Positions 6,179 to 42,778 of a stretch of 64,000 nucleotides of DNA are shown piece by piece. How positions within the stretch are numbered: the stretch's first letter is position 1; every line of letters starts with the position of its first letter. Location: NCBI RefSeq assembly GCF_017565645.3, contig NZ_CP086136.1, positions 4,199,501 to 4,263,500 on the forward strand. The letters are read 5' to 3'. The notes beneath the pieces are model-generated. The model ran no database searches. It saw only the letters and a program-made list of their open reading frames with translations, and was not told the origin of the DNA. The position numbers and the translations under genes are program-made. Origin of the DNA: Bradyrhizobium barranii subsp. barranii. Its GTDB lineage: Bacteria; Pseudomonadota; Alphaproteobacteria; Rhizobiales; Xanthobacteraceae.

Positions 6179-6910
6179 CTAACGCACTGCGATCGCAACG
6201 GCAGACAAGGCTGCTGGAAGGGACCAGGCCCAGTCTCCCAGCACTGAAACGGCCGCCGCGGCGGCGACACAGCCGAAGATGAAGCCGAGCAAGCGATGGA
6301 GCGAGCGACCCAGCGGCGTTGAATCATGCGGCAGCAGAGGGGTGCGTGGAGCGAGCAGGTCCATCGTCGACAAGACGGCATTGGCCAGATTGCCGATCAT
6401 CACCGCCGTCGAGATCGCGCCCGGCAGAGCGAGGCGAAGGAGCGCGTACTGGCAGGCCATGGCCGACACGGCGATCATCGCGGCCGCGCCGGCCCGGGAT
6501 CCAGCCGCATCGGCAGATGGCCTTGTGATGACGCTGAAGATCAACAGCGCGGCCAGCACGAGGAACTGAACCCGAAGCAACAGTCGCGCCAGGCTCGAAC
6601 CGTGCCGGCCGGAAGCTTGGGCGATCAGCCAGACGGTCGCCAAGGTCAGCATGAAAACGGGAATCGCCAACAATTGTGCCCAATGAAACGGGCCACCATC
6701 GACGGCAACGACGGCGGCCAGCACGATGTTGCCGGTCACGTGAGCCGTGAAGATATGACCCAGCGTGAAGAAGCCGGTGAAGTCGACCATTCCGGCGATG
6801 ATGCTGAGCAGCGGTGGCAGCCGCGCCTCCAGGCGCGACAGCTCCGCAGCGTCATCCGCTGAGTCCGCGGACCTTTGCAGCACGAGGAGGTCTCTGGCGA
6901 GCAGGGACAT
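6179..6910 (-). CDS. DUF1275 (YoaK-like) membrane protein
   Basis: A 243-residue integral membrane protein with about six hydrophobic segments. The N-terminal half carries the DUF1275 pattern SIIAGMVDFTGFFTLGHIF followed by TAHVTGNIVL, and later GNLANAVLSTMDLL. The function of the family is not established; a transport role is often suggested. It is the last gene of a long minus-strand run, 48 bp after the 3-hydroxybutyrate dehydrogenase gene. GGAG lies about nine bases before the ATG. Confidence 0.85.
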   Translation of the reverse strand: MSLLARDLLVLQRSADSADDAAELSRLEARLPPLLSIIAGMVDFTGFFTLGHIFTAHVTGNIVLAAVVAVDGGPFHWAQLLAIPVFMLTLATVWLIAQASGRHGSSLARLLLRVQFLVLAALLIFSVITRPSADAAGSRAGAAAMIAVSAMACQYALLRLALPGAISTAVMIGNLANAVLSTMDLLAPRTPLLPHDSTPLGRSLHRLLGFIFGCVAAAAAVSVLGDWAWSLPAALSAVAIAVR

Positions 6911-6958
6911 CTTTGGCTACTCCAATGCTGGCCGTCTGCATGGGCCTCTCACTGTGGG

Positions 6959-7741
6959 CTACTGTGCCGTCCATCCGCCATCGACCGCGATCGCGGTGCC
7001 CGTGATCTGGTCCGCCGCGGGCGAACACAGGAAGGCCACGGTGCCTCCAAGCTGCTCCGGAGAGACGAACTCGGACGACGGTTGTTTCTCGCCCAGGAGT
7101 GTCGCGGCGGCGTCCTTTTGGCTGATGTTCTTCTGTGCGGCGATGTCGCTGATCTGCTTTTCGACCAAGGGCGTCCGCACCCAGCCGGGACAGACTGCGT
7201 TGCAGGTCACGCCGCTGCCGGCGGTCTCCAGGCCAACCACCTTGGTCAGGCCGATCAACCCGTGCTTGGCGGCGACGTAGGCCGCCTTGTGCGTCGATGC
7301 GACGAGGCCGTGGGTCGAGGCGATGTTGACGATCCGGCCCCAGCGCTGCTTCTTCATCTGGGGCACCGCCGCCGCGATGCCGTGAAACGCGGCCGACAGA
7401 TTGATGTCCAGGATCGCATGCCACTTGGCCGACAGAAATTCTTCCACCGGCGCGGTGAACTGGATGCCGGCATTGTTCACGAGGATGTCGAGGCGTCCGA
7501 ACGTCTCGATTGTCGCGGCGATCAATCGGCGCACGGCATCGCCCTTCGACATATCGGCGCCGTCGTAGACCACGCGCACGCCGTGCTCGCGTTCGATCCC
7601 GCTGCGGATGGCTTCGATCTCGCCGGGGTCGCCGAAGCCGTTCAACACGAGGTTGACGCGGAGCCTGGCCAACTCTCTGGCGATTCCGAGCCCGATACCG
7701 CTGGTCGATCCGGTGACGATAGCGACCTTATCCTTCAACAT
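6959..7741 (-). CDS. bdhA: D-3-hydroxybutyrate dehydrogenase (SDR)
   Basis: A 260-residue short-chain dehydrogenase that matches the 3-hydroxybutyrate dehydrogenase subgroup, which interconverts acetoacetate and D-3-hydroxybutyrate with NAD. The cofactor loop TGSTSGIG is at residues 11-18, the NNAG motif near 89, and the catalytic residues are Ser142, Tyr155 and Lys159 in STHGLVAS and YVAAKHG. The typical C-terminal region with GGTVAFLCS and ITGTAIAVDGGW is present. AAGGAA precedes the ATG. With acetoacetate decarboxylase in the same run, it points to acetoacetate/polyhydroxybutyrate metabolism. Confidence 0.9.
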   Translation of the reverse strand: MLKDKVAIVTGSTSGIGLGIARELARLRVNLVLNGFGDPGEIEAIRSGIEREHGVRVVYDGADMSKGDAVRRLIAATIETFGRLDILVNNAGIQFTAPVEEFLSAKWHAILDINLSAAFHGIAAAVPQMKKQRWGRIVNIASTHGLVASTHKAAYVAAKHGLIGLTKVVGLETAGSGVTCNAVCPGWVRTPLVEKQISDIAAQKNISQKDAAATLLGEKQPSSEFVSPEQLGGTVAFLCSPAADQITGTAIAVDGGWTAQ

Positions 7742-7775
7742 GGCAGTTCCTTTCGACGTCAGGTGGGGTGGGGGA

Positions 7776-9392
7776 CTAGTGGGTGCCGCCGGCCTCGATC
7801 TGGCCGGGTTTCTTCAGCATCATCGAGGCGGCGAGTGCGACGATCAGTGCGACACCGAGCAGGTAGAACATGTCGCCGAAAGCCAGGACGAAGGCCTGCT
7901 TCTGCACGATCTTGCCGATCGCGACATAGGCGCGGTGAGCGGCGTCGATGCGATCGGTCACGCCGTGGTTCATGAAATACTGCGTCAGCTTCTCGAGCCT
8001 GGCTTGCGTGGCCTGCTCCAGCAGCGAGACCGACTGCGTCAGCACGTTGGAGTGATATTGCTCGCGCTTGGTGAGCAGCGTCTGCAGCAGCGCGATGCCG
8101 ACGGCGCCGCCGAGGTTACGCATCATGTTGAACAGGCCCGAGGCCGAACCCGCGTTCTCCGCCTCGATGCCCGATGTCGCGACAGCCGACAGCGGGGCGA
8201 ACACCAGCGCCTGACCGAAGGCGCGGACGACGTTCGGCCAGAAGAGCTGGTCGGTGGCGTAGTCGTTGGTCATCGAGATGTTCATGAAGTTGGATGCTGC
8301 GAACAGCGCAAAGCCGACGCCGATGATGAGCCGCGCGTCGAAGCGCCGTAACAGCTGCGGCACCAGCGGGATCAGCAACAGCTGCGGCAGCCCGGTCCAA
8401 GCCAGCACCATGCCGATCTGCTCGGCGTTGTAGCCCTGGATGCGCGATAGATAGACCGGCAGGATGAAGACCGAGCCGTAGAGCGCGATGCCGAGCAGGA
8501 AATTGGCGAGGATACCGAAGCCGAAATTGCGACGCGCCAGGAGGCGGAGGTTCAGCAGCGGCTTCCTTGCCGCCAGCTCGATCCACAGGAAGGCCGACAG
8601 CGCGATCGCCGCGACGATCGACAGCTTGACGATGAACGGCGAGCCGAACCAGTCGTCCTTGTTGCCTTCCTCGAGCACGGTCTGCAGCGCGGCGAGGCCG
8701 ATCGCCATGGTGGCGATCCCGGCCCAATCGCCCTCGCGCAGCAGCGACAGCTTCATCGGTTGCGACTCGAGCGAGACGAACAGCAAGCCGATCATGACCG
8801 CGCCCGGCACCAGGTTGACGTAGAAGATGTACTGCCAGCCCCAGTTCTCGGTGAGATAGCCGCCGATGGTCGGCCCGATCGCGGGCGCAAAGGTCGCGGA
8901 GATCGCAAACAGCGCCAGCCCGATCGGCTGCTTCGCCTTTGGCAGCAGCGTGATGATGAGCGTGAACGCCATCGGGATCAGCACGCCACCGGTAAAGCCC
9001 TGCACGGCGCGCAACACGATCATCTGCGACAGGTTTTGCGCCAGCGCGCAGGCCGCCGAGAACACCAGGAACAACGTCGCATTGGTCAGGAGATAGATGC
9101 GGATCGAGAACGCCTGCGCCAGCCAGCCGGACAGCGGAATCACCACAATCTCGGCAATCAGGTAGGAGGTCGAGATCCAGCCGCCATCATCGATACCGGC
9201 CCCGATCGCGCCCTGGATGTCAGCCAGCGAAGCGTTGACGATCTGGATGTTGAGCACCGCCATGAAGGCGCCGAGCGTGGCGCCGGCGATGGCGATCCAG
9301 GTCTTGGCGGAGACCGCCGGGGCCGGTGTGGTGACGGACCGCTCGCCTTCGCCGGCGGGCACGGCATCGATGGCCGGTTGCAGTGTGGTCAT
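7776..9392 (-). CDS. DHA2-family (EmrB/QacA-type) MFS efflux transporter
   Basis: A 538-residue transporter with the roughly fourteen hydrophobic segments of the DHA2 drug:H+ antiporter family. Diagnostic parts are MAVLNIQIVNASLADIQGAI in the first helix, the GGWISTSYLIAEIVVIPLSGWL segment and the motif-C-like stretch around residues 150-200 (RAVQGFTGGVLIPMAF, FAPAIGPTIGGYL). Directly upstream on the same strand is an EmrA/HlyD-type adaptor, so the two should form an EmrAB-like inner-membrane and periplasmic pump. No outer-membrane TolC-like gene is present in the window. The substrate is unknown. Confidence 0.92.
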   Translation of the reverse strand: MTTLQPAIDAVPAGEGERSVTTPAPAVSAKTWIAIAGATLGAFMAVLNIQIVNASLADIQGAIGAGIDDGGWISTSYLIAEIVVIPLSGWLAQAFSIRIYLLTNATLFLVFSAACALAQNLSQMIVLRAVQGFTGGVLIPMAFTLIITLLPKAKQPIGLALFAISATFAPAIGPTIGGYLTENWGWQYIFYVNLVPGAVMIGLLFVSLESQPMKLSLLREGDWAGIATMAIGLAALQTVLEEGNKDDWFGSPFIVKLSIVAAIALSAFLWIELAARKPLLNLRLLARRNFGFGILANFLLGIALYGSVFILPVYLSRIQGYNAEQIGMVLAWTGLPQLLLIPLVPQLLRRFDARLIIGVGFALFAASNFMNISMTNDYATDQLFWPNVVRAFGQALVFAPLSAVATSGIEAENAGSASGLFNMMRNLGGAVGIALLQTLLTKREQYHSNVLTQSVSLLEQATQARLEKLTQYFMNHGVTDRIDAAHRAYVAIGKIVQKQAFVLAFGDMFYLLGVALIVALAASMMLKKPGQIEAGGTH

Positions 9393-9471
9393 GGTTGTCT
9401 GCTCGTCGCTTGCGAGAGAAGCATTGCCTGAACGGATTGTCCGGGAGGAGACGACCGCCAGGGACGCGTAT

Positions 9472-10620
9472 TCAACTGCGAGGCTCGGGGCGGCGCGATG
9501 CGAGGCGCTTCTTGCTTTCGCGTTCGGCGATCGCCGCCGATTTGGTATTGATGGTCGGCTCGGTCGACATGCCGGGACGGAGCAGGCCGGTCAGGCTGCG
9601 GTCGTCGAGGACGATTTTCACCGGCATGCGCTGCACGATCTTGGTGAAGTTGCCGGTCGCGTTGTCGGGCGGCAGCAGCGCGAACTCCAGGCCGCTTGCC
9701 GGGGACAGGCTGTCGACATGGCCGTGCAGTCTGGTGCCGCGGAAGCTGTCGATGGTCAGCTCGACGGGCTGGCCGCCGCGCACATGGGTGAGCTGGGTTT
9801 CCTTGAAATTGGCGACGATGTACACGGCATCGAGCGGAACGACGGCCATCAACAACGTACCGGCCTGGACGAACTGCCCGACCCGGAGTGAGCGCGCACC
9901 GACGGTGCCGTCGACCGGCGCGATGATGCCGGTGTAGGACAGGTTCAACGCCGCCTGCTGCTCGACCGCACGGGCGCGGTCGCGCTGCGCGACTGCCCTG
10001 GCGCGTTCGGTGGAGAGCACGTCGACCTTGCGCTCGGCCGCGAGCAGGCCCGACTTGGCGTGCTGCAATTGCGCGGCGGCGGCGCGCAGCGCCGCATCGG
10101 TCTGCTGCGCGCGCTGCACCGTGCCGGAGCCCGTCTTCATCAGCCCGTCGTATCGGACCTGCTCTTCCTGCGCGAACTTCAGATTGGCCGTGGCGGCAGC
10201 GACATCGGCCGTGCCTTGCTCGATGATCGGCTGCTGCAGGGCAAGCTGTGCATCGAGATTGCGGACAGTGGCGTCGGATGCGGCGACGTCGGCGCCGGCC
10301 TGGTCGAGCGCGGCGCGGAAATCGCGATCGTCGATCTTTGCCAGCAACTGGCCGGCCTTCACCGTCTCGTTGTCGCCGACCAGGACCTGCGCGATATAGC
10401 CCGACACCTTCGGCGAGATGATCGTGGAATCCGCCTTCACGTAGGCGTCGTCCGTGGTCTCCAGATAGCGGCCGATGGTGAGATAGTGGTGGCCGAACTC
10501 GGCTGCGGCGGCGACGCCCAGGGCCAGTGCCAAGGCGAGGGCGGCCCGCTTGATCGCCTGCCCGGATGGCCGAAGGCTGGTTTTGGCGCCCTGCTCGGGA
10601 GCATAGGGAATGGAAGACAT
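9472..10620 (-). CDS. EmrA/HlyD-type membrane fusion protein
   Basis: A 382-residue periplasmic adaptor. It has one N-terminal membrane anchor (about residues 24-44), the biotinyl-lipoyl half-motif with TDDAYVKADSTIISPKVSGY, a long Ala/Gln-rich helical hairpin (about 105-220), then the second lipoyl half and beta-barrel (GIIAPVDGTVGARSL, VANFKETQL). The start at 10620 is preceded by GGAG (CGGAGAATACC) and matches the family N-terminus; the open frame extends further upstream but without support. It lies 79 bp upstream of the DHA2 transporter gene on the same strand and should be its partner. Confidence 0.9.
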   Translation of the reverse strand: MSSIPYAPEQGAKTSLRPSGQAIKRAALALALALGVAAAAEFGHHYLTIGRYLETTDDAYVKADSTIISPKVSGYIAQVLVGDNETVKAGQLLAKIDDRDFRAALDQAGADVAASDATVRNLDAQLALQQPIIEQGTADVAAATANLKFAQEEQVRYDGLMKTGSGTVQRAQQTDAALRAAAAQLQHAKSGLLAAERKVDVLSTERARAVAQRDRARAVEQQAALNLSYTGIIAPVDGTVGARSLRVGQFVQAGTLLMAVVPLDAVYIVANFKETQLTHVRGGQPVELTIDSFRGTRLHGHVDSLSPASGLEFALLPPDNATGNFTKIVQRMPVKIVLDDRSLTGLLRPGMSTEPTINTKSAAIAERESKKRLASRRPEPRS

Positions 10621-10652
10621 GGTATTCTCCGAAACGAGGTGGGCGGTGAGAT

Positions 10653-11828
10653 TCAGCCGCGGCGATGGACGTCGTGGGTGACGATGCCGAGCTCGGGAGC
10701 CGGCGGGTCCAGGCGTCGCGGATCGGCCAGCGTGCGGCGGATATCGTCCAGTCCGCTCTGACAGTGAGCGCGCATCGCGCTCAGCCCGAACTCGTAATCC
10801 CTCGAGTGGCCCTCGTGGATCTTGGTCTGATAGATCAGGTGCACGATGTTGTAGCAACGATGGCGCGCCATCTCCGCGATGGCGCGGATCTCGGGATCGT
10901 GCCTGGCGGCGTCCGGCAATTTCGCGATCGTGCGCTGCAAGGCCTGACGCATCTTCTGCATCCGCAGCACCTGGTCGGTTACGGCGCGTGTGCGGCTCGA
11001 ATACTGGATGTCCTTCTGCCGGCTCGACACTTCCATCATGTCGTGGGGAACGTGGCCCTTGGCCGACCAGAGATCGATCTGGAACGTCAGCGTGTCACAC
11101 GGCTCGCCGGACAGCACGCGAGATAAAGGCGTGTTCGAAACCACGCCGCCATCCCAATAGTGCTCGCCTTCGATCTCGACGGCGGGGAAGCCCGGCGGCA
11201 GCGCACCCGATGCCATGAAATGCTTCGGTCCCAGCCGGCGCTCGGCGGTGTCAAAATAGGTCAGGTTGCCGGTGCGGACGTTGACCGCGCCGACGCTGAC
11301 GCGCACGTCGCCCGAGTTCAGCCGGTCGAAGTCGACGAGCCGTTCCAGCGTCCGGTGCAGGGGTGCCGTATCGTAAAAGCTGGTCGCGGAGTCGCCCGAG
11401 AACGGTGACCAGAGCGGCGAGGGGAAGCGTGGCTTGAAGAAGCCCGGCTGGCCCTGGATCAAGGCCCGCGCCGCCGCCATCGCGTTGCGTACCGAGTTGA
11501 TGTCGAACGCAAAGGGCAGGGCGTTGGCGAGCCCTTCGCCGGCGGGCCACTCTATCGAAAAGGCGCAGATGGTTTCCCAGAACTCGCGCAACCGCGCAAC
11601 ACGCTCGCCTTCGGGCGAGCCCGCGATGATCGCGGCGTTGAGCGCGCCGATCGAGATGCCGGCCAGCCAGTTCGGCCGGATGCCGGCCTCGTGCAGGCCT
11701 TCATAGACTCCGGCCTGATAGGCGCCGAGTGCGCCGCCGCCTTGCAACACCAGGGCGACGACATCGTAGGGAAGCGAATTGCTCCGCTGCGGCACAGGAT
11801 TGGTTTGCTCGCGCATCACGTTCAGCAT
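10653..11828 (-). CDS. Patatin-like phospholipase
   Basis: A 391-residue patatin-domain hydrolase. The oxyanion loop LQGGGALGAYQAG lies near residue 30, the nucleophile elbow GISIG near 60 and the catalytic Asp in YWDGGVVSNTPL near 205, so the Ser-Asp dyad is intact. Members act on lipids or related esters. Its place between acetoacetate decarboxylase and genes for an efflux pump and 3-hydroxybutyrate dehydrogenase suggests a link to polyhydroxybutyrate or lipid turnover; this is inference. CGGGAG precedes the ATG at good spacing. Confidence 0.9.
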   Translation of the reverse strand: MLNVMREQTNPVPQRSNSLPYDVVALVLQGGGALGAYQAGVYEGLHEAGIRPNWLAGISIGALNAAIIAGSPEGERVARLREFWETICAFSIEWPAGEGLANALPFAFDINSVRNAMAAARALIQGQPGFFKPRFPSPLWSPFSGDSATSFYDTAPLHRTLERLVDFDRLNSGDVRVSVGAVNVRTGNLTYFDTAERRLGPKHFMASGALPPGFPAVEIEGEHYWDGGVVSNTPLSRVLSGEPCDTLTFQIDLWSAKGHVPHDMMEVSSRQKDIQYSSRTRAVTDQVLRMQKMRQALQRTIAKLPDAARHDPEIRAIAEMARHRCYNIVHLIYQTKIHEGHSRDYEFGLSAMRAHCQSGLDDIRRTLADPRRLDPPAPELGIVTHDVHRRG

Positions 11829-11861: not shown

Positions 11862-12662
11862 TCAGTCGGCATTCGCGTCGACCAGCGTCTCGGAGGATCC
11901 GCGCCGCCGCACAATTTCGCTCGAGGCCAGATAGTCGTGGACCACGGTGCCGAGCCCCAGTGTCAGGTCGGCAACGATATGCTTGGCCGAAAGCACCTGG
12001 AGCACCGGCAGCTCGGCGACGGGGGCAAGGGCGTGCGAGTACAGGTCGAGCGCTGCCGGCCCAGTCCAGGCGCCCTTCACGGTGATGTCTTCGAGATGGA
12101 AGCGCACCAGCTCGCAGATGCGCGGCGTGCCGTCGACATGCGGAATGATCTTGAGCAGGAAATTCGGTGCGGCGAGCTTTTTTGCTTCGGCCGCGGCGTC
12201 CAGGGCCCGGTGCTTGTAGCCCATCGTGCCGGTCGCGATGCGGACCGAGCCGTAGTTCAAGGTGCCAACCAGGGTGTCGGTCTCGACCTCAAGCTTCGGC
12301 TGCGCCAGCTTCTTGGGAAAGCCCCAGAGCTCGCGCCCGCCCGCAATTGGCGGATGATCGTTGAGGAACATCTGGTGGACGAAGCTGCCGGCCTTGCCCT
12401 GATAGGACACCGGAATGACCTGCCCACTTTCGGTGTAGTCGCCGAATCCGGTCGAGTCCGGCATTCGGATGAACTCATAGTTCACCACAGGTTCGGTGAT
12501 TTCGAGTGGTGCCGGCACGATCCGGCGCAGTGCCTCGGGATCTGTCCGGTACTGGATGATGAAGTATTCGCGATTGATGAAGCGATAGGGGCCGGGCGGG
12601 AAAGCCGGGCTGGTCAGCGGCATGGCGAACGCGCTCGCGCGCACGGTTTCGTGTTTCATCAT
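11862..12662 (-). CDS. adc: Acetoacetate decarboxylase
   Basis: A 266-residue acetoacetate decarboxylase, which converts acetoacetate to acetone and CO2 through a Schiff base. The signature [17 protein letters not shown] carries the adjacent lysines of the active site. GYTESG-like and VPVSYQ segments and the [10 protein letters not shown] stretch also fit. Two consecutive ATG codons (12662 and 12659) are preceded by CCGGAG; I use the first. The open frame continues far upstream but over the flavoprotein gene, so the longer start is rejected. It is 33 bp from the patatin gene and in the same run as bdhA, placing acetoacetate at the centre of this operon. Confidence 0.9.
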
Positions 12663-12738: not shown

Positions 12739-13944
12739 CTAGACTTCGCCGACGTGCTCCGGATCGGCCGAGGCCAGCGCGGCCGCGCGTTCCGGTCGGG
12801 GCGGATAGATCCAGACAGTATTGATCTGCTGCTTGGTCCGCTTCGCCTCGTCGCCGACGAGCTCGAGCTTCCGATCCCAGCCTCGCGTGAAGATGGCGCC
12901 GGCTTCTCCCAGATCGAGGCAGGTGGCGTAGGCCTTCTGGTGATAAGGCCTGGTCGCGACACCCAAAAGTTCGGCAGCGGCATTGTTGCCGGCAAACGCG
13001 CCCATTCGCGTGGCATGCTGGCACGACATCAGCGCGTGGTTGCCGACGTCGTCACACGCTGCTTTGGCGGCATCGCCGGTGGCAAAGACGCCGGCGACAC
13101 CAGGCACGCGCAAGTCGCGGTCGACAAGGAGCCGGCTCAGATTGTCGCGCTCGGCCGGGATCTGCGCGGTCAAAGGAGCGGCGCGCATGCCCGCGGCCCA
13201 GATCACGGTCTCCGCTTCGATGTGTTCGCCGCTGGAAAGCGTGACGCCAGACTTGTCGAGCGAGGTGACACCGGTGCCGAGGCGGGTCTCCACGCCAAGC
13301 TTGCGCAGCGCATCCTCAATGACGGGGCGGGAATCTGCGCCCATATCGTGAGCGATCGTGCTGTTGCGATCGACGATGACGACACGCGCCTTGGCGTTCT
13401 TGCCGAGGACCGCACGCAGCCGCGCCGGCATCTCCGTCGCCGTCTCGATACCGGTGAACCCGCCGCCGGCCACGACGACCGTATCGCGTCCGTTCCTTGC
13501 CGGCCGATCGGCCAGATCATGGAGATGCCGCTCCAGCGCAATCGCATCGTCGAGCTTGTCGACGCTGAAAGAGTGCTCGGCGATGCCGGGGATGTTCGGT
13601 CGGAAAAGCCGGCTGCCGGTGGCAACGACCAGCCGATCGTAGGAGAGAGTCTGCTTCGTGCCTTCGGCCGTGACGAGCTCGATCGCACGAGACTTGGTAT
13701 CGATGGTCCCGGCGCTGCCTTGCACGTAGACGACGTCGATGGCCTTCAACACGTCTTGCAGAGGTGCCGTCAGGGTCTCGGGCTTGCTTTCGTAGAGGCG
13801 GGGCCGGACCACGAGCGTCGGCTCCGGTGCAACAAGCGCGATCTCGAGTTGTTCGGGCGAAGCGCCCTGAATGTCCCGCAGGCGCGCGGCGGAAAGTGCG
13901 GCGTACATGCCGGCAAAGCCGGCGCCGATAATGACGAGTCGCAT
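12739..13944 (-). CDS. NADH dehydrogenase-like FAD-dependent oxidoreductase (NDH-2 type)
   Basis: A 401-residue two-dinucleotide-binding flavoprotein. The FAD-binding [11 protein letters not shown] is at the N-terminus, the ATG motif VVATGSRL near residue 107, the NAD-binding [13 protein letters not shown] near 158 and the second FAD motif GVFATGDAA near 283. This layout is that of type II NADH dehydrogenases and related disulfide-type reductases. There is no obvious C-terminal membrane helix, so it may be a soluble oxidoreductase rather than a respiratory enzyme. AGGAGATC precedes the ATG. It lies 76 bp upstream of acetoacetate decarboxylase. Confidence 0.85.
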
Positions 13945-14060: not shown

Positions 14061-14354
14061 TCAGGGAGAGGGGCAGCCTGGCATCGAAGCCATCGGCGGC
14101 GGCCAGCGGTGACGAAAGAAAATTGGCTCGATGGCGTTCGGACGCCAGTCGGCGTACGGAAGCTGGCCGCCATCTCTGTCGATGATGGGCATTACCGGAC
14201 TTGCGTTGTGTACGGACTGCGCCGGTATCTCCACTTCCTCGCCGGTTGCCGAGGTGAAGCGAACGGCCAATGAAAGTCCGTACATGACGGCACTTGCGGC
14301 CATCCTTCGTCGCGGCACGAGTTTGACCGGACTAGCGAAGTTCTTCCAGGTCAT
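14061..14354 (-). CDS. Small hypothetical protein, first gene of the acetoacetate operon
   Basis: A 97-residue protein beginning MTWKNFASPVKLVPRRRMAA; no known domain or membrane segment was recognised. Two things support it as a gene: a Shine-Dalgarno GGAG (GACGGAGACGAACA) before the ATG, and its place between the tandem 20-bp repeat at 14421-14460 and the NDH-2-like gene. It would be the leader gene of the long minus-strand operon. Confidence 0.5.
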   Translation of the reverse strand: MTWKNFASPVKLVPRRRMAASAVMYGLSLAVRFTSATGEEVEIPAQSVHNASPVMPIIDRDGGQLPYADWRPNAIEPIFFRHRWPPPMASMPGCPSP

Positions 14355-14420
14355 TGTTCGTCTCCGTCTATTGGATCGAGGGCACCCTGATCATTTAGCG
14401 GAGCGGACCTGCAGTTGCGC

Positions 14421-14460
14421 CAGAGCGATTGCTCTGCCTGCAGAGTGATTGCTGCTTAGC
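14421..14460 (-). promoter_or_regulatory. Tandem 20-bp repeat, candidate AraC operator of the eight-gene operon
   Basis: Two adjacent 20-bp units, CAGAGCGATTGCTCTGCCTG and CAGAGTGATTGCTGCTTAGC, share CAGAG(C/T)GATTGCT. The repeat ends 66 bp before the ATG at 14354. AraC proteins often bind two direct-repeat half-sites about two helical turns apart, which fits a 20-bp period. The same pair occurs at 18778-18817 before the catalase-like gene, in the same orientation relative to its gene. Confidence 0.65.
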
Positions 14461-15406
14461 GCATGCGACGTCGCCAATCGCTCGGCGTTTCTCCCGTCAA
14501 TCGCCTGAACGCGGCGGCAAAGGCGGTTTGAGAGGCATAGCCAAGCTCAGCCGCCACCGTGGCGATCGGGATTTCGGTGTCGCGCAGCGTGTTCATGGCC
14601 TGCTCGAGCCGGTGCTGGCGCAGCCAGCTATGCGGCGAAAGACCGGTGCTTTCCTTGAAAGCACGACAGAAGTGGAAGCGAGACAGGCCGGCGTCCGAAG
14701 CGAGCGCCGCAAGAGAGACGTCGGAATCGCTGTCCGAACGCAAGCGTTCGATCGCGCGTCGCAGAGCTTGGGGAGCCAGCCCGCCTATGATCGGCTCGAT
14801 GGCGGTCGGCTCGCCGATGTGCGCGGCCAGGATGCGCGTGGCGATGATATCGGTCAGTCGCTGCCTGAAGAGTGCATCCAGAACCGCGTTGCCCTCCAAC
14901 ACATCCGCCCCGCTCATCAGCAGTCCGGATGTGACAGGGTCGAGATGCCCGGTTCGCTCCAGAAGATCACCGGGAATGGGCGCGTCGGCTTCGCGGGCGA
15001 CGCGTTCGAGCGTTGCGTGCGGAAGATACAGCTGGACGACATCGACAGGACCGGGAATATCCCATCTGGCGCTCGAACCAGCCGGGATGATCGTCACGAC
15101 TCCGGAACGGGCCGTTCCAATCGCAACCGATTTTCCGGCGCGTCGCTCCAGGCGCTGAACGCCTGTGGGGTACGTCATGATGACGTGGTCGGTCATGGGC
15201 TCGACGACGTCGTGCAGAGCGCCGTGCTTCCAATGCGCGATGCCGCCATTGGAGGGGTCTGAAGCCATCTGCAGCGGCGCGGTCTTCAGGATGCGCGCCA
15301 TCTCCACATCGGCACGCCGCCGCTCGACGTTCGGCGAGTCGCTGTGGCGCGCACCGGGTGCGGCAAGCAGAGCCCCCAAAGGATCGTGCAGGATTGGCTT
15401 GTCCAT
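14456..15406 (-). CDS. AraC-family regulator, tandem paralogue 1
   Basis: A 316-residue regulator with an N-terminal cupin-like sensing domain (TIIPAGSSARWDI) and a C-terminal two-HTH AraC domain: VSLAALASDAGLSRFHFCRA and IPIATVAAELGYASQTAFAA, ending GETPSDWRRRMR. It is clearly paralogous to the next gene, with almost identical DNA-binding domains. The ATG at 15406 aligns with the start of that paralogue; a GTG at 15433 lacks a ribosome site. Its stop overlaps the end of the tandem repeat at 14421-14460, so it probably controls the adjacent operon. Confidence 0.87.
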   Translation of the reverse strand: MDKPILHDPLGALLAAPGARHSDSPNVERRRADVEMARILKTAPLQMASDPSNGGIAHWKHGALHDVVEPMTDHVIMTYPTGVQRLERRAGKSVAIGTARSGVVTIIPAGSSARWDIPGPVDVVQLYLPHATLERVAREADAPIPGDLLERTGHLDPVTSGLLMSGADVLEGNAVLDALFRQRLTDIIATRILAAHIGEPTAIEPIIGGLAPQALRRAIERLRSDSDSDVSLAALASDAGLSRFHFCRAFKESTGLSPHSWLRQHRLEQAMNTLRDTEIPIATVAAELGYASQTAFAAAFRRLTGETPSDWRRRMR

Positions 15407-15443
15407 AGAGCTATTCTCGCGTTCGGAACGCACTTCGGGACCG

Positions 15444-15463
15444 GCGGAGCGATTGCTACTAAC
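15444..15463 (-). promoter_or_regulatory. Single copy of the GAGCGATTGCT half-site
   Basis: GCGGAGCGATTGCTACTAAC matches one unit of the 20-bp repeats at 14421 and 18778. It lies 37 bp upstream of the ATG at 15406, between the two AraC paralogues. No second unit sits 20 bp to either side, so it may be a weak or autoregulatory half-site. Confidence 0.45.
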
Positions 15464-16412
15464 GCACGCGTCGTCGCCAATCGCTCGGCGTTTCGCCGTT
15501 CAATCGCTTGAACGCCGCGGCGAAGGCCGTTTGCGAGGCATAACCAAGCTCTGCCGCAACCAGGGCGATCGATGCGTCGGTATCGCGAAGCAGGTTCATG
15601 GCCTGCTCGAGTCGGTATTGGCGCAGCCAGGCGTGAGGCGAGAGCCCGGTGCTTTCCTTGAATGCGCGGCAGAAGTGGAAACGCGACAGGCCGGCATCGG
15701 AGGCGAGGGCATCGAGGGAGACGTCGGTATCGCTGTCCGAGCGCAAGCGCTCGATGGCACGGGCCAGGACCTTGGGCGAAAGCCCACCGATGGTCGGCTG
15801 GAATGGGGCTTGCGAGCCGGTATGAGCAACCAGGAGACGCATCGCCAGGAGGTCGATCAACTGATGCCTGAACAGCGTGTCCAGGGCCGCATTGCTCTCC
15901 AGCGTGTTGACCGCGCTCAGGATCAAACGGGACGTAATGGGATCAGGATGCGCCGTTCGCTCCAGGAGTTCGCTCGATGTGCCGCTCGCGGCTTCGTCGG
16001 CGACGCGTTTCAGCGTTGCGTGGGGGAGATAGAGCTGAACGACGTCGACGGGCTTCGGAATATCCCATCGGGAGCTCGATCCTTCGGGAATGATGATCAC
16101 AGCCCCGCGACGAAACGTTCCAATCGCAACCGACCGTCCTGAGCGCCGCTCCATGTGCTGCACCGCGCCGTTGTAGGCCATGATGACGTGGTGGCTCATG
16201 GGCTCGACGACGTCGTGCAAGGGTTCGTGTTTCCAGTGGGCGATCCCGGCACCGGAGGAGTCCAATGCCACGCGAAATGGTTCGGTGTGGAGCACACGCG
16301 CCATCTCGGCATTAGCGGCACGCCGCCCGGTCGTCGACGACTGGCCTTGGCTTGGCTCGGATGCGGCCGGAGGATTTTCACGCGCAGAATTGTGCGAGAT
16401 CGGTTTGCTCAT
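15459..16412 (-). CDS. AraC-family regulator, tandem paralogue 2
   Basis: A 317-residue AraC regulator with the same architecture as the gene at 14456: a cupin-like sensing half (VIIIPEGSSSRWDI, DVVQLYLPHATL) and a two-HTH C-terminus (VSLDALASDAGLSRFHFCRA; ALVAAELGYASQTAFAAAFK). The start at 16412 gives MSKPIS, matching MDKPIL of the paralogue; the open frame extends upstream without support. The near-identical recognition helices suggest both proteins read the same operator. The pair looks like a gene duplication. Confidence 0.86.
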   Translation of the reverse strand: MSKPISHNSARENPPAASEPSQGQSSTTGRRAANAEMARVLHTEPFRVALDSSGAGIAHWKHEPLHDVVEPMSHHVIMAYNGAVQHMERRSGRSVAIGTFRRGAVIIIPEGSSSRWDIPKPVDVVQLYLPHATLKRVADEAASGTSSELLERTAHPDPITSRLILSAVNTLESNAALDTLFRHQLIDLLAMRLLVAHTGSQAPFQPTIGGLSPKVLARAIERLRSDSDTDVSLDALASDAGLSRFHFCRAFKESTGLSPHAWLRQYRLEQAMNLLRDTDASIALVAAELGYASQTAFAAAFKRLNGETPSDWRRRVR

Positions 16413-16859
16413 TGGACGTGCTCGTCTCAGGGGCCTTGCACTCGCGGCTGAGCGCGATTTGCGCGCCCGGCGTGAAGCCATCGCTTCTTTTGCGCCCGTA
16501 CGGGTGCCGCAGCGCGCCGCGAGCGCTCGGTGTCGTTTTCTAGGCACGTGGGACTACGGGGTCTTTCCTGAAACCGCGGTGCTTTTCCTGATTCTGCTCA
16601 AAGCGCTCGGACGCGAGATCTTGTGATCGGCGGTCCCTGGACGACTGCGGAGAATTAAGCTCATGATTTACGCATTAGATATTGAAATCGCTTCTGAAAA
16701 TGGCTTTGCCACAATCGGCCGCGGCGCCCCGTCGCAATCGCAAATCACGCCGCGACGCGACTGGACCGCCGTACTCCGAAGCGGATAATGCTACCGACCT
16801 CCAGGGCGACGGCAGTCAGATGGGTTGCCTGGTCAAAATTCCACGGATGGGTCGATCGA

Positions 16860-17789
16860 ATGGCACTGGCGGGCACCTTCGGACAGAGGGTCAAGCGGCA
16901 GTTGAGCCTGGCGGATGCGCCGCCTTCGCTGATCACGCGGTCGCGGCGAGGCGTCGACGTTGCGGTCACCGAAACCCTGAACAGTGAGCCGGTAGAGGGT
17001 CTTTGCGGCTCGCTTGCCGACGACGCCTATCTCGTCAGCCTGAAGCTGCAGGATTATCCTGACTGCGAGCTCTGGGAGCACGGCAAGTGCTTCACGAGGA
17101 CGGACGTCAGGGCCGGTACGACCTATCTGTACGATCTCCGGCACGATCCGCGCTTCGTCATCGACAAGCCGTTCCATTCCGTCCATTTCTATCTTCCACG
17201 TCTGACGCTCGACGGAATCGCGCGAGAAGCCCGCACGCCGCCCATTGGCGACCTCGCGTGCCGGTATGGTTTCGGCCATGACGACGAGATCATGCGCCAT
17301 GTCGGCGCCCTGATGTTGGAAGGACTGCGTCGTCCGGCGGAGGCCAACCAGCTCTTCATCGACCACATGATGCTCGCGTTCACGGCCCACATTGCCCAGA
17401 CCTATGGCGGATGGCAGCGCGTCGCGGATGCGGCCCGGGGCGGTCTTTCCCCATGGCAGGTGAGGCGAGCCTGCGAAGGGCTCGACTCGGATCTCGGCGG
17501 GACGCTTTCACTGCAACAGATCGCGGCCGAGTTTGGTCTCTCGGTTAGCCATTTTTCCCGCGCGTTTCGAATCTCGACCGGCCTCCCGCCTCATCAGTGG
17601 CTGCTCCGCCAGCGTGTGAAGGCGGCAAAGCAGTTGATGACCCTGCGCGACGTGCCGCTGTCCGAGATTGCGATCTCGGTCGGGTTCGCCAATCAAAGCC
17701 ATTTGACGAAGGTGTTCTCGGCGCAGGTGGGCGTCAGCCCGGCGGCATGGCGCCGCGAAGCGCTTGGCATCAGGGACAGCGAGACGTGA
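16860..17789 (+). CDS. AraC-family regulator, third of the cluster
   Basis: A 309-residue AraC regulator on the opposite strand from the tandem pair. The C-terminal domain reads LSLQQIAAEFGLSVSHFSRA and VPLSEIAISVGFANQSHLTK, ending VGVSPAAWRREAL. The N-terminal half has the same SVHFYLPRLTLDGIAREA layout as the tandem paralogues but is more diverged. An earlier in-frame ATG at 16788 is possible. It is convergent with the catalase-like gene, only eight bases separating the stop codons. Confidence 0.85.
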   Translation: MALAGTFGQRVKRQLSLADAPPSLITRSRRGVDVAVTETLNSEPVEGLCGSLADDAYLVSLKLQDYPDCELWEHGKCFTRTDVRAGTTYLYDLRHDPRFVIDKPFHSVHFYLPRLTLDGIAREARTPPIGDLACRYGFGHDDEIMRHVGALMLEGLRRPAEANQLFIDHMMLAFTAHIAQTYGGWQRVADAARGGLSPWQVRRACEGLDSDLGGTLSLQQIAAEFGLSVSHFSRAFRISTGLPPHQWLLRQRVKAAKQLMTLRDVPLSEIAISVGFANQSHLTKVFSAQVGVSPAAWRREALGIRDSET

Positions 17790-17797
17790 TCGTCCGA

Positions 17798-18721
17798 TCA
17801 GCGGCGCTGCGCCAGTGAATTGGCGTAGGCGGCGCGTCGCGCCACGAAGATCTCATCCGGCGGATAACCGATGCCCTCCGCAAGATTTGCCGGATCGAAG
17901 CCGGAAGTATCGCACGTCTCGTCGGCTTCGATCGCGGTGATCACGATCGTTCCGAGCCGTACGGCTTCCCGGCTGTCCTCATCCGGCCACCGGATCGTGA
18001 CGTCCTGCGTCGGGTCGTCGGGACGGCCGAGCAGCGCCATCAGGCTGAACCGGATATCGCGCGTTGCGATCCTTCCTTTGAGATCGTCGTGCAGGACGTC
18101 GGCGGACGTCGCCCTGGCCTTGCCCCCGATCGCCGCAAGCTCGCTACCGACCGGGACGACCTTGAATTTGATGAACTGCGTCTCGCCCTTCGAATTCGTT
18201 GCGGGGAAGGCGTGGACGGCCCAGTAGGTCGTGCCGGCAAAACTCGGGGGAGGCGGATGCGCGGCGATGTAGTTCGCCTGACGCAGCGTATCGGGATTGG
18301 CGGTGGAGAAGGCCTTGATCTTCTCCAGGTCCGGCCTGCCGTCGCGACCGGGCATGCGCGAGGTGAGGAATGCCAGCATTTGATCGAGCGTCCTCGCATA
18401 ATGAACCGGAGCGCTCTGTGTGAGGATGTCGGAGCGATGCTCGTCGTTGCCGAGCCTGAAGCTGAAGCCGCGCAGCGCGAGATCCCTGGTCTCGGATTCG
18501 TGGGGACCGCCGTCCACCGAGAAGCGCGCCAGCACGCGCGATGGTGTTGTGAAGCTCCGCGACTTCGTGACCTCGTCGGCCCGATCCGAAGGGATGTAGG
18601 TCCCCCGGACGCAGCGGCCCTTGGCAAAGCTCGCGCGTGCCTTGGGTGGATGACCCAGAACGGCCTTCTGAGCCTCGACAATGGAGGCGGGTGTGGCGGT
18701 GCCGCTCGGGAACAGGGACAT
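17798..18721 (-). CDS. Catalase-related (SrpA-like) haem protein lacking the distal His
   Basis: A 307-residue member of the small catalase-like peroxidase family. Core landmarks are VLARFSVDGGPHESETRDLALRGF with SDIL and VHY downstream, corresponding to the VRFST...DVRGFAVKF region of catalases, and the C-terminal ARRAAYANS, which keeps the Arg-x3-Tyr proximal ligand pattern. The position of the essential distal His, normally in R-x-x-HAKG, reads RASFAKG, so Phe32 stands there. If the alignment is right, classical catalase chemistry is unlikely. No signal peptide is seen. A tandem AraC-type operator lies 56 bp upstream. Confidence 0.82.
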   Translation of the reverse strand: MSLFPSGTATPASIVEAQKAVLGHPPKARASFAKGRCVRGTYIPSDRADEVTKSRSFTTPSRVLARFSVDGGPHESETRDLALRGFSFRLGNDEHRSDILTQSAPVHYARTLDQMLAFLTSRMPGRDGRPDLEKIKAFSTANPDTLRQANYIAAHPPPPSFAGTTYWAVHAFPATNSKGETQFIKFKVVPVGSELAAIGGKARATSADVLHDDLKGRIATRDIRFSLMALLGRPDDPTQDVTIRWPDEDSREAVRLGTIVITAIEADETCDTSGFDPANLAEGIGYPPDEIFVARRAAYANSLAQRR

Positions 18722-18777
18722 GGCTTGGTCTTGGATTTGCTACCCCAACCCTTAGCGGTGGGGCTGCTTTCCCGCTC

Positions 18778-18817
18778 CAGAGCGATTGCTGTGGTTGCAG
18801 CGCGATTGCTGTCATCT
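18778..18817 (-). promoter_or_regulatory. Tandem 20-bp repeat, candidate AraC operator of the catalase-like gene
   Basis: Units CAGAGCGATTGCTGTGGTTG and CAGCGCGATTGCTGTCATCT are adjacent with a 20-bp period. The first 13 bases of unit one are identical to the first 13 of the unit at 14421. The site ends 56 bp before the ATG at 18721, close to the 66 bp seen at the other promoter. Confidence 0.65.
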
Positions 18818-19166: not shown

Positions 19167-20117
19167 ATGGACACGCATCCGCTCAAGCTCAAGGTCAGAT
19201 CGTATGCCGCGGAGACGCCGTTCATACGGAGCCTTGTGCTTGGCGTGGAGGACGGCGTCGCGCCGCGATGGCAGGCGGGCGCACATATCCGCGTGGCGCT
19301 CCCGAATGGAGGCGACCGGCCGTACTCGCTGATGGCTTTGCCGGGCCTTCCCGAGGGTATGCTGGCGCTCGGGGTGCTGCGCGAGGAGGCTTCGACCGGC
19401 GGCTCGCAGTTCATGCACGCGCTGAAGATCGGCGATGTCGTAAAGGCAACGGCGCCGGTCAACAATTTTCATCTGCATGAGGGCGCGGCGCCCGCGCTGC
19501 TGTTCGCCGGCGGCATCGGTGTCACGCCGATCCTGTCGATGGCGGTGAATCTCGCGGCCCGAGGAAGCCCGTATCGCTTGCACTATGCGGGCCGCACGCA
19601 AGGCCTGCTCGCGTTCGTGCCGCACCTGCAGGAGATTTGCGCCAAGGGGCTATCCATTCACTACGACAGCGACGAGTCCCGCCTGGACATTGCAGCGGCG
19701 CTCGGCGATGCCGCCGCAAACGCCCACATCTACGCCTGCGGTCCGGCCGGCATGATCGAAGCGGTGAAGGCGGCTGCGCTCGGCAGGGACATTCCGGCAG
19801 ACCGCATCCACTACGAGCTCTTCAAGGCCGAGCAATCGTCCTCGGCCGACTTGCCGTTCGAGGTCGAGCTCAAATCGACCGGGCAGGTCGTCAGCGTCGC
19901 GGCCGGCCAGACCATCATCCAGGCGCTGGAGGCTGCGGGTCTCGACGTGCTCTACGACTGCCAGCGCGGCGATTGCGGCATCTGCCAGTGCGGCGTGATC
20001 GAAGGGGTGCCCGACCATCGCGACGTCATCCTCAGCGACGACGAGAAGGCGTCCAACAAGGTCATGCAGATCTGCGTGTCACGCGCGAAGTCGGAACGTC
20101 TGGTGCTGGATCTCTAG
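19167..20117 (+). CDS. Oxygenase reductase component (VanB/phthalate dioxygenase reductase type)
   Basis: A 316-residue iron-sulfur flavoprotein that passes electrons from NAD(P)H to the oxygenase. Order of domains: flavin-binding barrel with RPYSLMALPG (about residues 50-60), nucleotide-binding GGIGVTPILSM (about 113-123) and CGPAGMIEAV, then a C-terminal plant-type [2Fe-2S] ferredoxin domain with Cys residues in YDCQRGDCGICQCG and a fourth in MQICVSRAK. It begins the operon with the oxygenase subunits 17 bp downstream. Confidence 0.92.
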   Translation: MDTHPLKLKVRSYAAETPFIRSLVLGVEDGVAPRWQAGAHIRVALPNGGDRPYSLMALPGLPEGMLALGVLREEASTGGSQFMHALKIGDVVKATAPVNNFHLHEGAAPALLFAGGIGVTPILSMAVNLAARGSPYRLHYAGRTQGLLAFVPHLQEICAKGLSIHYDSDESRLDIAAALGDAAANAHIYACGPAGMIEAVKAAALGRDIPADRIHYELFKAEQSSSADLPFEVELKSTGQVVSVAAGQTIIQALEAAGLDVLYDCQRGDCGICQCGVIEGVPDHRDVILSDDEKASNKVMQICVSRAKSERLVLDL

Positions 20118-20134
20118 GGGAGGCGAGGGACGTC

Positions 20135-21475
20135 ATGGCGAAATACGGACAGAATGCCGACGCGATCGCGGCGCTGGTGCGCGAGGCCGAGGTGCACCGC
20201 GACGTCTATGTCGACCCCGAGATCTTCGAGCTCGAGATGGAGCACCTGTTCCCGAACAGCTGGATCTATGTCGGGCACGCGAGCCAGTTGGGAAAGCCCG
20301 GCGATTTCATCACGGCCAATATCGGCCGTCAGCCGGTGCTGGCGAGCCGCCACGCCGACGGCTCCATCCACGTCTTCTACAACCGCTGTCCGCACAAGGG
20401 CGTGAAGATCGCCTCCGAGCCCTGCGGCAACACCGGAAAGTTCTTCCGCTGCCCCTATCACGCCTGGTCGTTCAAGACCGACGGCTCGCTGCTCGCGATC
20501 CCTCTGAAGAAGGGCTACGAAGGCACCGGCTTTGGCGACACGCAAGCGAATGAGGGGCTGTCGAAGGTCAGGAACGTCGTGATCTATCGCGATTTCATCT
20601 TCGCCCGCCTGAGCGACGACGGCGTGTCCTTCGAGGATTATTTCGGCGAGAGCCTCTCGACCATCGACAACATGGTCGACCGCTCGCCGGAGGGGAAGCT
20701 CGCAGTCCAGGCGACGCCGATCCGCTACATGCACACCTGCAATTGGAAGATGCTGGTCGAGAACCAGACCGACACCTGCCATCCGATGGTGGCGCATGAG
20801 AGCTCGGCCGGCACCGCGGTCAAGGTCTGGAAGCGCGAGCAGGGCGATTCCACGGAGACGCCGATGGCGGTGCAGCTCTACGGTCCCTTCATGAGCCCGT
20901 ACGAGTTCTACGAGCAGAGCGGCATCAGGATCTGGCCGAACGGCCATGGCCATACCGGCGTCGCCAACTCCATCCATTCCAACTATTCGGACATCGAAGG
21001 CTATGTCGGCCAGATGGTCGCGGCGTATGGCGAGCAGCGGGCGCACGAGATCCTCGGCGAGGTCAGGCACAACACGGTGTATTTCCCGAACATCATGGTC
21101 AAGGGCGCCGTGCAGATCCTGCGCAATTTCATCCCGATCGCGGTCGACAAGACGCTGGTCGAGAGCTGGGTCTATCGCCTGGTCGGCGCGCCGGACAAGC
21201 TCTACGAGCGGGCGTTGATGTACAACCGCTTCATCAACGCGCCGACCTCGATCGTCGGGCACGACGATCTCGAAATGTACGAGCGGGCGCAGGAAGGACT
21301 GAAGTCGAACGGCAATCAATGGGTCAATCTGCGGCGCCTCTACGAGAGCCATGAAGAGCAGGACGTCACGGCCGTAATCAACGGCACGTCCGAGCGACAG
21401 ATGCGAAACCAGTTCCACGCCTGGTCGAAATTCATGACCATGAACATGGACAAGCGTGTCGAGGCCGCAGAATGA
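20135..21475 (+). CDS. Aromatic ring-hydroxylating dioxygenase, alpha subunit
   Basis: A 446-residue Rieske non-haem iron oxygenase large subunit. The Rieske ligands are Cys85 and His87 (RCPHKGV) and Cys106 and His109 (FRCPYHAW). The mononuclear iron site shows the bridging Asp and two His of DTCHPMVAHE. The start has GGGGAGGCGAGGGA upstream. It overlaps the beta-subunit gene by ATGA and should form an alpha-beta oligomer fed by the reductase encoded just before it. The substrate cannot be read directly; the setting (CoA ligase, gentisate dioxygenase, indolepyruvate oxidoreductase, two MarR) suggests an indole or aminobenzoate-type aromatic. Confidence 0.92.
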   Translation: MAKYGQNADAIAALVREAEVHRDVYVDPEIFELEMEHLFPNSWIYVGHASQLGKPGDFITANIGRQPVLASRHADGSIHVFYNRCPHKGVKIASEPCGNTGKFFRCPYHAWSFKTDGSLLAIPLKKGYEGTGFGDTQANEGLSKVRNVVIYRDFIFARLSDDGVSFEDYFGESLSTIDNMVDRSPEGKLAVQATPIRYMHTCNWKMLVENQTDTCHPMVAHESSAGTAVKVWKREQGDSTETPMAVQLYGPFMSPYEFYEQSGIRIWPNGHGHTGVANSIHSNYSDIEGYVGQMVAAYGEQRAHEILGEVRHNTVYFPNIMVKGAVQILRNFIPIAVDKTLVESWVYRLVGAPDKLYERALMYNRFINAPTSIVGHDDLEMYERAQEGLKSNGNQWVNLRRLYESHEEQDVTAVINGTSERQMRNQFHAWSKFMTMNMDKRVEAAE

Positions 21476-21948
21476 TCGACGAGAAGGCCATCACGGACTT
21501 CATCTATCTGGAAGCCGAGCTGCTCGACACGATGCAATGGCAGGCCTGGCTCGATCTGTTTCACCCCGAAGGGCGCTACTGGATGCCGCTCGAATGGCAA
21601 CAGCGGGATCCAGTGCTCCAGCCCTCGTTGATGTACGAGGATCTGCTACTCCTGAAGGTGCGGGTCGAGCGGCTCGCCGGCGAGCGGACCTTCAGCCAGA
21701 AGCCGAAGAGCCGTTGCCATCATCTTCTCCAGGCACCGCGGATCGTGGCGTGCGATCCGACTGCGGGCGTCTACAAGGCGCGGACGTCCTATATCTATAC
21801 CGAGACCCGCGGTGATCTGCTGGAGCGCTATTCGGGATGGGCGTCGCACGAATTCGTAGAGGTCGGCGATGCCCTGAAGATCAAGCTCAAGCGGGTCGAT
21901 CTCGTCAATTTCGACGCGCCGTTCGGCAACATCCAGCTTTTCATGTGA
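21472..21948 (+). CDS. Aromatic ring-hydroxylating dioxygenase, beta subunit
   Basis: A 158-residue small subunit of the SnoaL/NTF2-like fold. Typical features are FIYLEAELLDTMQWQAWLDLF, YWMPLEW and the RVERL segment. It has no iron ligands and stabilises the alpha subunit. The ATG overlaps the alpha-subunit stop (ATGA at 21472-21475), showing tight translational coupling. Confidence 0.9.
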   Translation: MIDEKAITDFIYLEAELLDTMQWQAWLDLFHPEGRYWMPLEWQQRDPVLQPSLMYEDLLLLKVRVERLAGERTFSQKPKSRCHHLLQAPRIVACDPTAGVYKARTSYIYTETRGDLLERYSGWASHEFVEVGDALKIKLKRVDLVNFDAPFGNIQLFM

Positions 21949-21955
21949 GTACGCC

Positions 21956-23572: not shown

Positions 23573-23574
23573 TC

Positions 23575-42126: not shown

Positions 42127-42778
42127 GGGAACCTCTCGGCGAGTGGGACGCCAAGGATCCAGCAAACGGCACAGGCCTGCGCCAGCACTTGTTCGCCAAC
42201 GGGCGAATGGGTTCGCCGGCGGGCAAACCGCCACTATAATGGCCTTATGAGCGAAGCGCGTCGGAGTGACCTTCTGCGGGATTGGGCCGTTGACCTCGCG
42301 ATCGCGAGCGTCTGCGCCATCTTTTTCGGCCTGATCGGACCGTTTGGTAGCTATCTGAACGGACCGACCTGGCAGCGCGTGGTGTTTCAACTCGCCTGCT
42401 TCTTACCCGGAACCCTCCTTTTCGGATCGCTCATCCGGGTGGTGCTGCGGCTCCGCCTGAACCCGGCGATGACCTGGATGTCGATCTTCCTCGGCGTCGT
42501 CATCCTGAACGCGCCATTCCAGATCTGGGTCGTGTCGATAGCCGTATCGATATGGCCCTTCCTGAAAATCTTACGACCCCTCGATTGGTACTTGCAGGGG
42601 CTGATCACCGCCTTGCCGATTGTGCTGGGTTTCACCTTTCTCATGCAGGCCCGGTTACATCGCCGGCAACAGGCCAAGGAAGCCGGCGAAGCGCCGCCAA
42701 CTGCTTTCGGACTACTCGGTGCGCCACCTTCCGCGGTGCTTTGCCTGCAGATGGAGGACCACTATGTGCGCGTCCGTA

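Follow-up and report, generated by a model that had tools for sequence, protein, structure and literature searches.

Tandem direct repeats beside paired AraC-type genes of Bradyrhizobium barranii are predicted operators of a conserved regulator clade

We analysed a 64,000-nucleotide stretch of the Bradyrhizobium barranii subsp. barranii genome (NZ_CP086136.1, positions 4,199,501 to 4,263,500; hereafter the window). It carries tandem genes for two AraC/XylS-type regulators, AraC1 and AraC2, and two pairs of direct repeats. One pair (operator 1) precedes a 97-residue open reading frame (ORF), sm97, which is followed by genes for a flavin adenine dinucleotide (FAD)-dependent oxidoreductase and acetoacetate decarboxylase; the other (operator 2) precedes a catalase-family gene. 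We propose, with a probability of about 0.86, that these repeats are operators of AraC1/AraC2 regulators and serve as activator sites. The site, its spacing, its geometry, its conservation and its association with the AraC1/2 clade were all computed directly.

A first-pass annotation had reported repeat units at 14421 and 18778 and a single unit near 15444, and all of them were located at these positions. The core units lie at 14421-14433 and 14441-14453 in operator 1, which touches the AraC1 stop codon, and at 18778-18790 and 18798-18810 in operator 2. On the minus strand, which also encodes both target genes, operator 1 reads AGCAGCAATCACTCTGCAGGCAGAGCAATCGCTCTG and operator 2 reads GACAGCAATCGCGCTGCAACCACAGCAATCGCTCTG. 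The distances of 66 and 56 bp to the start codons (14354 and 18721) were confirmed, and both pairs have the same orientation to their genes. The pairs had been called perfect; their spacing is exact, but their sequence is not, as each pair of 13-bp cores contains one mismatch (CAGAGC/CAGAGT and CAGAGC/CAGCGC). Taken singly, the cores do not stand out from chance: seven were found in the window with at most two mismatches, compared with 3.76 expected, and 7 of 100 shuffles equalled or exceeded this number. The tandem arrangement does, as judged by comparison with Markov sequences. Self-matches of at least 11/13 at a distance of 20 bp occurred at 13 positions, whereas 100 Markov sequences gave 1.58 on average and never more than 8. 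They form three clusters (14420-14422, 18776-18783 and 42191-42192), and the third of these (window 42191-42224) is unlike the operator, scoring below 12 bits by the position weight matrix (PWM) described below.

In the 11.4 Mb host genome, the tandem core is present only at the two window sites (reversed control, 0). The genome search proposed in the first-pass annotation, for pairs spaced by 20 bp, returned these two sites, and a looser pattern with up to three mismatches added one more (control, 0). This orphan operator, at C1:7960366, is 3.7 Mb from the window and precedes a second sm97-FAD operon, behind which lies a metallo-hydrolase-like sequence spread over two reading frames (by resemblance to locus L064). 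No AraC match was found within 17 kb around the orphan operator (tblastn, E 1e-6). Directly upstream, a 44-nt stretch (L116:7321-7364) that meets the first two bases of the site matches the 3' end of araC2 at 80% identity. Hence an araC gene appears to have been lost here and its operator kept, and this retention argues for a regulator that acts in trans.

The operator is also conserved in relatives. A first search for GATTGCT-N13-GATTGCT in 120 genomes gave matches in nine: the host genome, six of 71 other members of the genus and two members of the order. The reversed control gave one match (G096). We followed up the six genus members, leaving out the order members (G072 and G087) and a second match in G040. 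The operator lies between an AraC1/2-type gene and the sm97-FAD genes in five of them and before the catalase orthologue in one. At L032:7964-8907, AraC2 matches the gene in front of the operator as two pieces in different frames, and this araC may be broken.

For a broader view, we used the best 80 of 158 confirmed loci, fetched by their AraC1/2-clade gene in named genomes. Nearly all are from Bradyrhizobium; the others come from Tardiphaga, a Rhizobiaceae bacterium, a Xanthobacteraceae metagenome-assembled genome and the betaproteobacterium Oxalicibacterium solurbis. The closest named record found was Bradyrhizobium sp. Arg816 (L033), at 97% in the AraC match, the host and very near genomes possibly being left out. 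We built a PWM from six sites, a few of which come from genomes represented in the 80 loci. It found the operator at 30 bits or more in 79 loci; the reversed-PWM control reached at most 11.5 bits. The 80 loci hold 97 sites, or 99 with the two in the window. In 2.16 Mb of scanned strand there were 99 matches above 25 bits, none in the reversed control and a maximum of 10.8 bits in 20 mononucleotide shuffles. Sixty-six of the 97 sites precede sm97-type genes or their full-length relatives, 8 precede the FAD gene, 12 precede the catalase gene and 11 lie elsewhere; a site stands before sm97 or the FAD gene in 71 of the 80 loci. Among the sites elsewhere, the first ORF encodes an alpha/beta-hydrolase in L044, L074 and L078. 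A metallo-hydrolase-like first ORF occurs in L064, L078, L081 and L086 (Lactamase_B 9.4e-27 for L064, the sole one tested). Across the class, a pattern search with at most two mismatches matched 2 of 385 genomes, G000 and G021 (reversed control, 0), and these are the only two genomes of the window's genus in that set; the mismatch limit misses weaker sites, such as those of Tardiphaga and Oxalicibacterium. In the two loci of Oxalicibacterium solurbis (L102 and L110), an AraC1/2-type gene, the operator and a FAD gene stand together in a betaproteobacterium, which suggests horizontal transfer.

The promoter geometry is conserved as well. In the aligned sites, the two half-sites are directly followed by a GGGCAG stretch and then by a CGCTA-A element, and conservation is poor past the promoter. 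The CAAT-to-CAAT spacing is 20 in 94 pairs. As in AraC/XylS tandem operators, the two half-sites run in the same direction, separated by about two helical turns. An xTAxAx hexamer resembling a -10 element begins at an offset of exactly 22 in 71 of 98 sites and at 21 in one. This layout fits that expected of a class II AraC-type activator, in which the proximal half-site would lie at or overlap the -35. The same regulators might instead repress from these sites, since the proximal half-site touches the promoter region and this is compatible with repression. However, a poor -35-like hexamer is combined with a -10-like one conserved at a fixed distance, as expected of a promoter that depends on an activator, and we regard repression as improbable.

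Which AraC protein would bind these sites? We compared the best 50 catalase matches (E at most 2.8e-114; two genomes give two each), 48 of them in loci fetched anew and the other two in the window and in G011 contig 12 (L029). The operator precedes the catalase gene in 16 of the 50 (14 of the 48 fetched, plus the window and G011 contig 12). AraC1/2-type genes, sought within about 7 kb, are near all 16 operator-bearing genes, two of them only after flank widening, compared with 17 of the 34 that lack the operator. Flanks were widened only for those two exceptions and for two operator-less loci. This favours the association in the fetched loci (14/14 versus 17/34, Fisher p 0.0007; unwidened, 12/14 versus 17/34, p 0.026), and the loci are related by descent. 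AraC3, a third AraC-type protein, is encoded divergently from the araC pair and adjoins the catalase gene, and it could be taken for the binder. Yet its orthologue adjoins the catalase gene in 46 of the 48 loci irrespective of the operator, which is present in just 14; by these counts, AraC1/2 track the operator and AraC3 does not. Furthermore, L173 has the site without an AraC3 match, and L102 and L110 have it before the FAD gene with no AraC3 orthologue within the fetched 13 kb (the rest of these genomes being unsearched). The recognition-helix segments of AraC3 also differ. On the catalase-locus counts and the helix differences, we rejected AraC3 as the binder; we consider it very unlikely.

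The AraC1/2 regulators, on the other hand, form a distinct group. The host genome has four genes of this clade (532-629 bits; the next AraC scores 116), and the recognition-helix segments SRFHFCRAFK and SQTAFAAAF are identical in all four. At least 95% of the 80 loci have retained these segments, one Ala position excepted. AraC1 and AraC2 score above cut-off for HTH_18 and HTH_AraC and have the C-terminal, roughly 100-residue domain with two helix-turn-helix (HTH) motifs of AraC/XylS regulators. An AlphaFold2 model of AraC2 (32 aligned sequences; mean pLDDT 75.7, pTM 0.52) shows an N-terminal barrel of about nine beta-strands, then helices and two HTH motifs. Its N-terminal domain compares with those of AraC and BgaR at TM 0.53-0.61 by target length, pointing to a cupin-like domain. 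The best long structural matches were Rns, ToxT, CsvR and CuxR, at a high rmsd of about 20-24 A, which probably reflects a different placement of the domains; taken separately, the domains match AraC, BgaR, AdpA and SoxS. No named AraC-type NCBIfam equivalog scored above cut-off for AraC1, AraC2 or AraC3 among the 25 best matches of each (of 32, 34 and 28), and on these scores we rejected membership in any of them. Taken together, the conserved site, its spacing, its position and the promoter geometry beside the AraC1/2 clade support the earlier proposal that the repeats are operators of the tandem AraC pair. That proposal also joined the acetoacetate operon and the catalase gene in one regulon. 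In its favour, the catalase-promoter copy is found only with AraC1/2 near, but a minority of relatives have it. The catalase branch seems to be an addition, made in particular lineages, to a core unit of araC, operator and sm97/FAD genes.

Several observations weigh against our proposal. Locus L106 has no operator in the PWM scan of the 80 loci, and the -10-like hexamer was not found at an offset of 21-22 in 26 of 98 sites. The operator is missing from 34 of the 48 fetched catalase loci, 17 of which have AraC1/2 nearby. Two of the four clade genes in the host genome (L129 and L130) have no operator beside them. As the 80 loci were picked by their AraC1/2 gene, they cannot show that other regulators lack the site. 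Finally, on sequence alone, either of the two paralogues could be the binder, and it could activate or repress.

Based on these results, we propose a model for how the operators work. Each half-site reads AGCAATC-N-CTCTG on the transcribed strand. The two half-sites are direct repeats at a spacing of 20 bp, or two helical turns, and would take up two AraC monomers side by side, each facing the promoter. The proximal half-site abuts a poor, GGGGCA-like -35, with a CTAGAT or CTAAAT -10-like element 22 nt further on. A dimer bound in this position would act as a class II activator and bring in RNA polymerase, in a similar way to XylS at Pm. We infer binding, activation rather than repression, and a small-molecule inducer for the cupin-like N-terminal domain. 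The second part of the model concerns the targets. Operator 1 would drive sm97, the FAD oxidoreductase and acetoacetate decarboxylase, and probably the efflux and 3-hydroxybutyrate genes behind them. Operator 2 would drive the catalase-family gene, and the orphan operator would drive the second sm97-FAD operon in trans.

The single unit at 15445-15457 is placed after the AraC2 stop codon as operator 1 is placed at that of AraC1. In 22 loci with paired araC genes, the window included, the distal half-site is recognizable (at least 13 bits) in 11, and the proximal half-site is absent in all 20 that could be scored. In the near relative L033, even the distal half is lost. We rejected the single unit as a working operator because its proximal half is absent and its distal half has decayed in L033, although a lone half-site may have some function. 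The simplest reading is that it is probably a relic of a duplicated araC-operator cassette, whose inner operator has decayed. By eye, araC-like fragments lie between duplicated operators in L041:6959-7153 and L078:6953-7112. These fragments, and units at matching places after both stop codons, would also be expected if araC and its 3' flank had been duplicated in tandem and all of the repeats were functionless by-products. This explains the single unit at 15444, but not the catalase site, the araC-less orphan site or the retention of both half-sites in 79 of 80 loci. The orphan site and the pattern of half-site decay led us to reject a pure by-product, which we consider extremely improbable. 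An element acting in RNA, such as a hairpin or terminator at the araC end, has as little to commend it. On inspection, without a folding run, a 6-bp hairpin is possible for one unit, CAGAGCGATTGCTCTG, but not for the other window units or for most relatives. Moreover, what is conserved is direct repeats at a 20-bp spacing, and the catalase site in the window is not 3' of a gene. Inspection of the window and relative sites thus led us to reject this explanation too.

The first gene behind operator 1 has a history of its own. Profile searches gave no family match for sm97, and an ORF of 90-114 residues fills its slot in 60 sources (window included). Several loci have a gene for a full-length alpha/beta hydrolase at this place behind the promoter (for L104, Abhydrolase_1 7.6e-29). 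In the three that we aligned, L104, L105 and L108, the hydrolase N-terminus looks signal-like by eye and lines up with sm97. The dN/dS ratio of sm97 is 0 to 0.22 in the 12 most similar pairs, with a median of 0.51 over 467 usable pairs, and the N-terminal part is tighter than the C-terminal part (0.33 versus 0.65). The sm97 protein looks like an alpha/beta hydrolase cut down to its N-terminal part, with purifying selection maintaining what is left. By eye, cysteines are present in the C-terminal tail of many sm97 relatives. We tentatively suggest, as a possibility below even odds, that a cassette of araC and its 3'-end operator was duplicated repeatedly and the operator copied or kept in trans at catalase, hydrolase and metallo-hydrolase genes, giving a regulon centred on Bradyrhizobium, while sm97 was cut from a hydrolase and selected for a new job. 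This job might perhaps be to act, once exported, on the full-length enzyme as a partner, decoy or inhibitor.

The coordinates of the operators and surrounding genes are collected in Table 1. From their strand and gaps, the co-oriented genes at 6179..11828 are probably in the same operon as acetoacetate decarboxylase. Divergent from the catalase gene, at 19167-24303 on the plus strand, are genes for a reductase, Rieske oxygenase alpha and beta subunits, a ligase-like ORF and a short-chain dehydrogenase/reductase, perhaps an aromatic-acid pathway. No tandem operator faces these genes.

Table 1. Operators, promoter-like elements and genes (window positions unless a locus or genome is named).
Feature	Position	Strand	Remarks
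Tandem operator 1	14421..14456	-	Two AGCAATC-N-CTCTG half-sites, 20 bp apart; precedes the 97-aa ORF/FAD-oxidoreductase/acetoacetate decarboxylase cluster; conserved in relatives
Tandem operator 2	18778..18813	-	Precedes catalase-family gene; same site in 16/50 catalase orthologues
Single half-site	15445..15457	-	Just 3' of AraC2 stop codon; distal half 17.1 bits, proximal half -27.1 bits
Orphan operator region	L116:7321-7398 = G000 C1 about 7960320-7960400		araC remnant of ~14 codons
Promoter-like element 1	14393..14421	-	GGCGCA abutting operator 1; CTAAAT (14398-14393) begins 22 nt after operator
Promoter-like element 2 (catalase gene)	18750..18778	-	CTAAGG (18755-18750) begins 22 nt after operator 2
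AraC1	14456..15406	-	AraC/XylS-type regulator; HTH_18 6e-26; genome score 626 bits; ATG 15406 chosen, longer ORF from GTG 15433
AraC2	15459..16412	-	Tandem paralogue of AraC1, 66% identical; HTH_18 8e-27; ATG 16412 chosen, longer ORF from GTG 16547
AraC3	16788..17789	+	Distant AraC-type regulator adjoining catalase gene; recognition helices differ
Catalase-family protein (target 2)	17798..18721	-	Pfam Catalase 1.4e-17
sm97 (97-aa ORF)	14061..14354	-	First gene behind operator 1; apparent truncated relative of alpha/beta hydrolase
FAD/NAD-dependent oxidoreductase	12739..13944	-	Pyr_redox_2 1.5e-47; commonest target gene behind operator across loci
Acetoacetate decarboxylase	11862..12644	-	ADC 3e-93; start chosen
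Patatin/DUF3734 protein	10653-11828	-	Co-oriented cluster
HlyD-type protein	9472-10713	-	Co-oriented cluster; start chosen
MFS protein	7776-9392	-	Co-oriented cluster
3-Hydroxybutyrate dehydrogenase	6959-7741	-	Co-oriented cluster
DUF1275 protein	6179-6910	-	Co-oriented cluster

In sum, our analysis yields a 36-bp, high-information candidate binding motif for an AraC clade without a match to any named regulator. It also yields a testable regulon in a genus of nitrogen-fixing symbionts, comprising FAD oxidoreductase, acetoacetate decarboxylase, catalase-family, alpha/beta-hydrolase and metallo-hydrolase genes. Additionally, it illustrates how araC-operator units may be duplicated, be reduced to half-sites and persist as orphan operators.

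Operators of AraC/XylS regulators are a well-known kind of system. The motif, the regulon and the AraC clade do not seem to have been described: we found no description of them in the open-licence PMC papers searched. The AraC-type regulator RclR controls the flavoprotein oxidoreductase RclA, a pairing that resembles the one found here, and the NCBIfam models of both appear among our matches. We rejected membership because the scores are far below cut-off (RclR, 45.6 and 48.7 bits versus 400; RclA, 28.4 versus 740). MarA and SoxS are not known to have an N-terminal cupin domain. The AraC1/2 regulators share the two-HTH DNA-binding fold with MarA, SoxS and Rob. According to PMC4514859, regulators of this group bind single sites of about 15 bp, and those of Rob (GCAC-N7-CAA) and SoxS (GCAC-N7-TAAA) have an A-box similar to ours, whereas here there are two half-sites. 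The same paper describes MtlR at PmtlE of Pseudomonas, with two similar 15-bp blocks upstream of the -35. This is like our sites in layout, and MtlR governs a sugar-alcohol regulon. The comparison with XylS at Pm of the TOL plasmid again concerns paired direct repeats. According to PMC5481539, each repeat consists of a 5' box A (TGCA), 6 bp and a 3' box B (GGTA), and the two monomers that occupy the repeats contact RNA polymerase. The letters and target genes differ here, but the arrangement is alike, with AGCA-N6-TCTG present twice.

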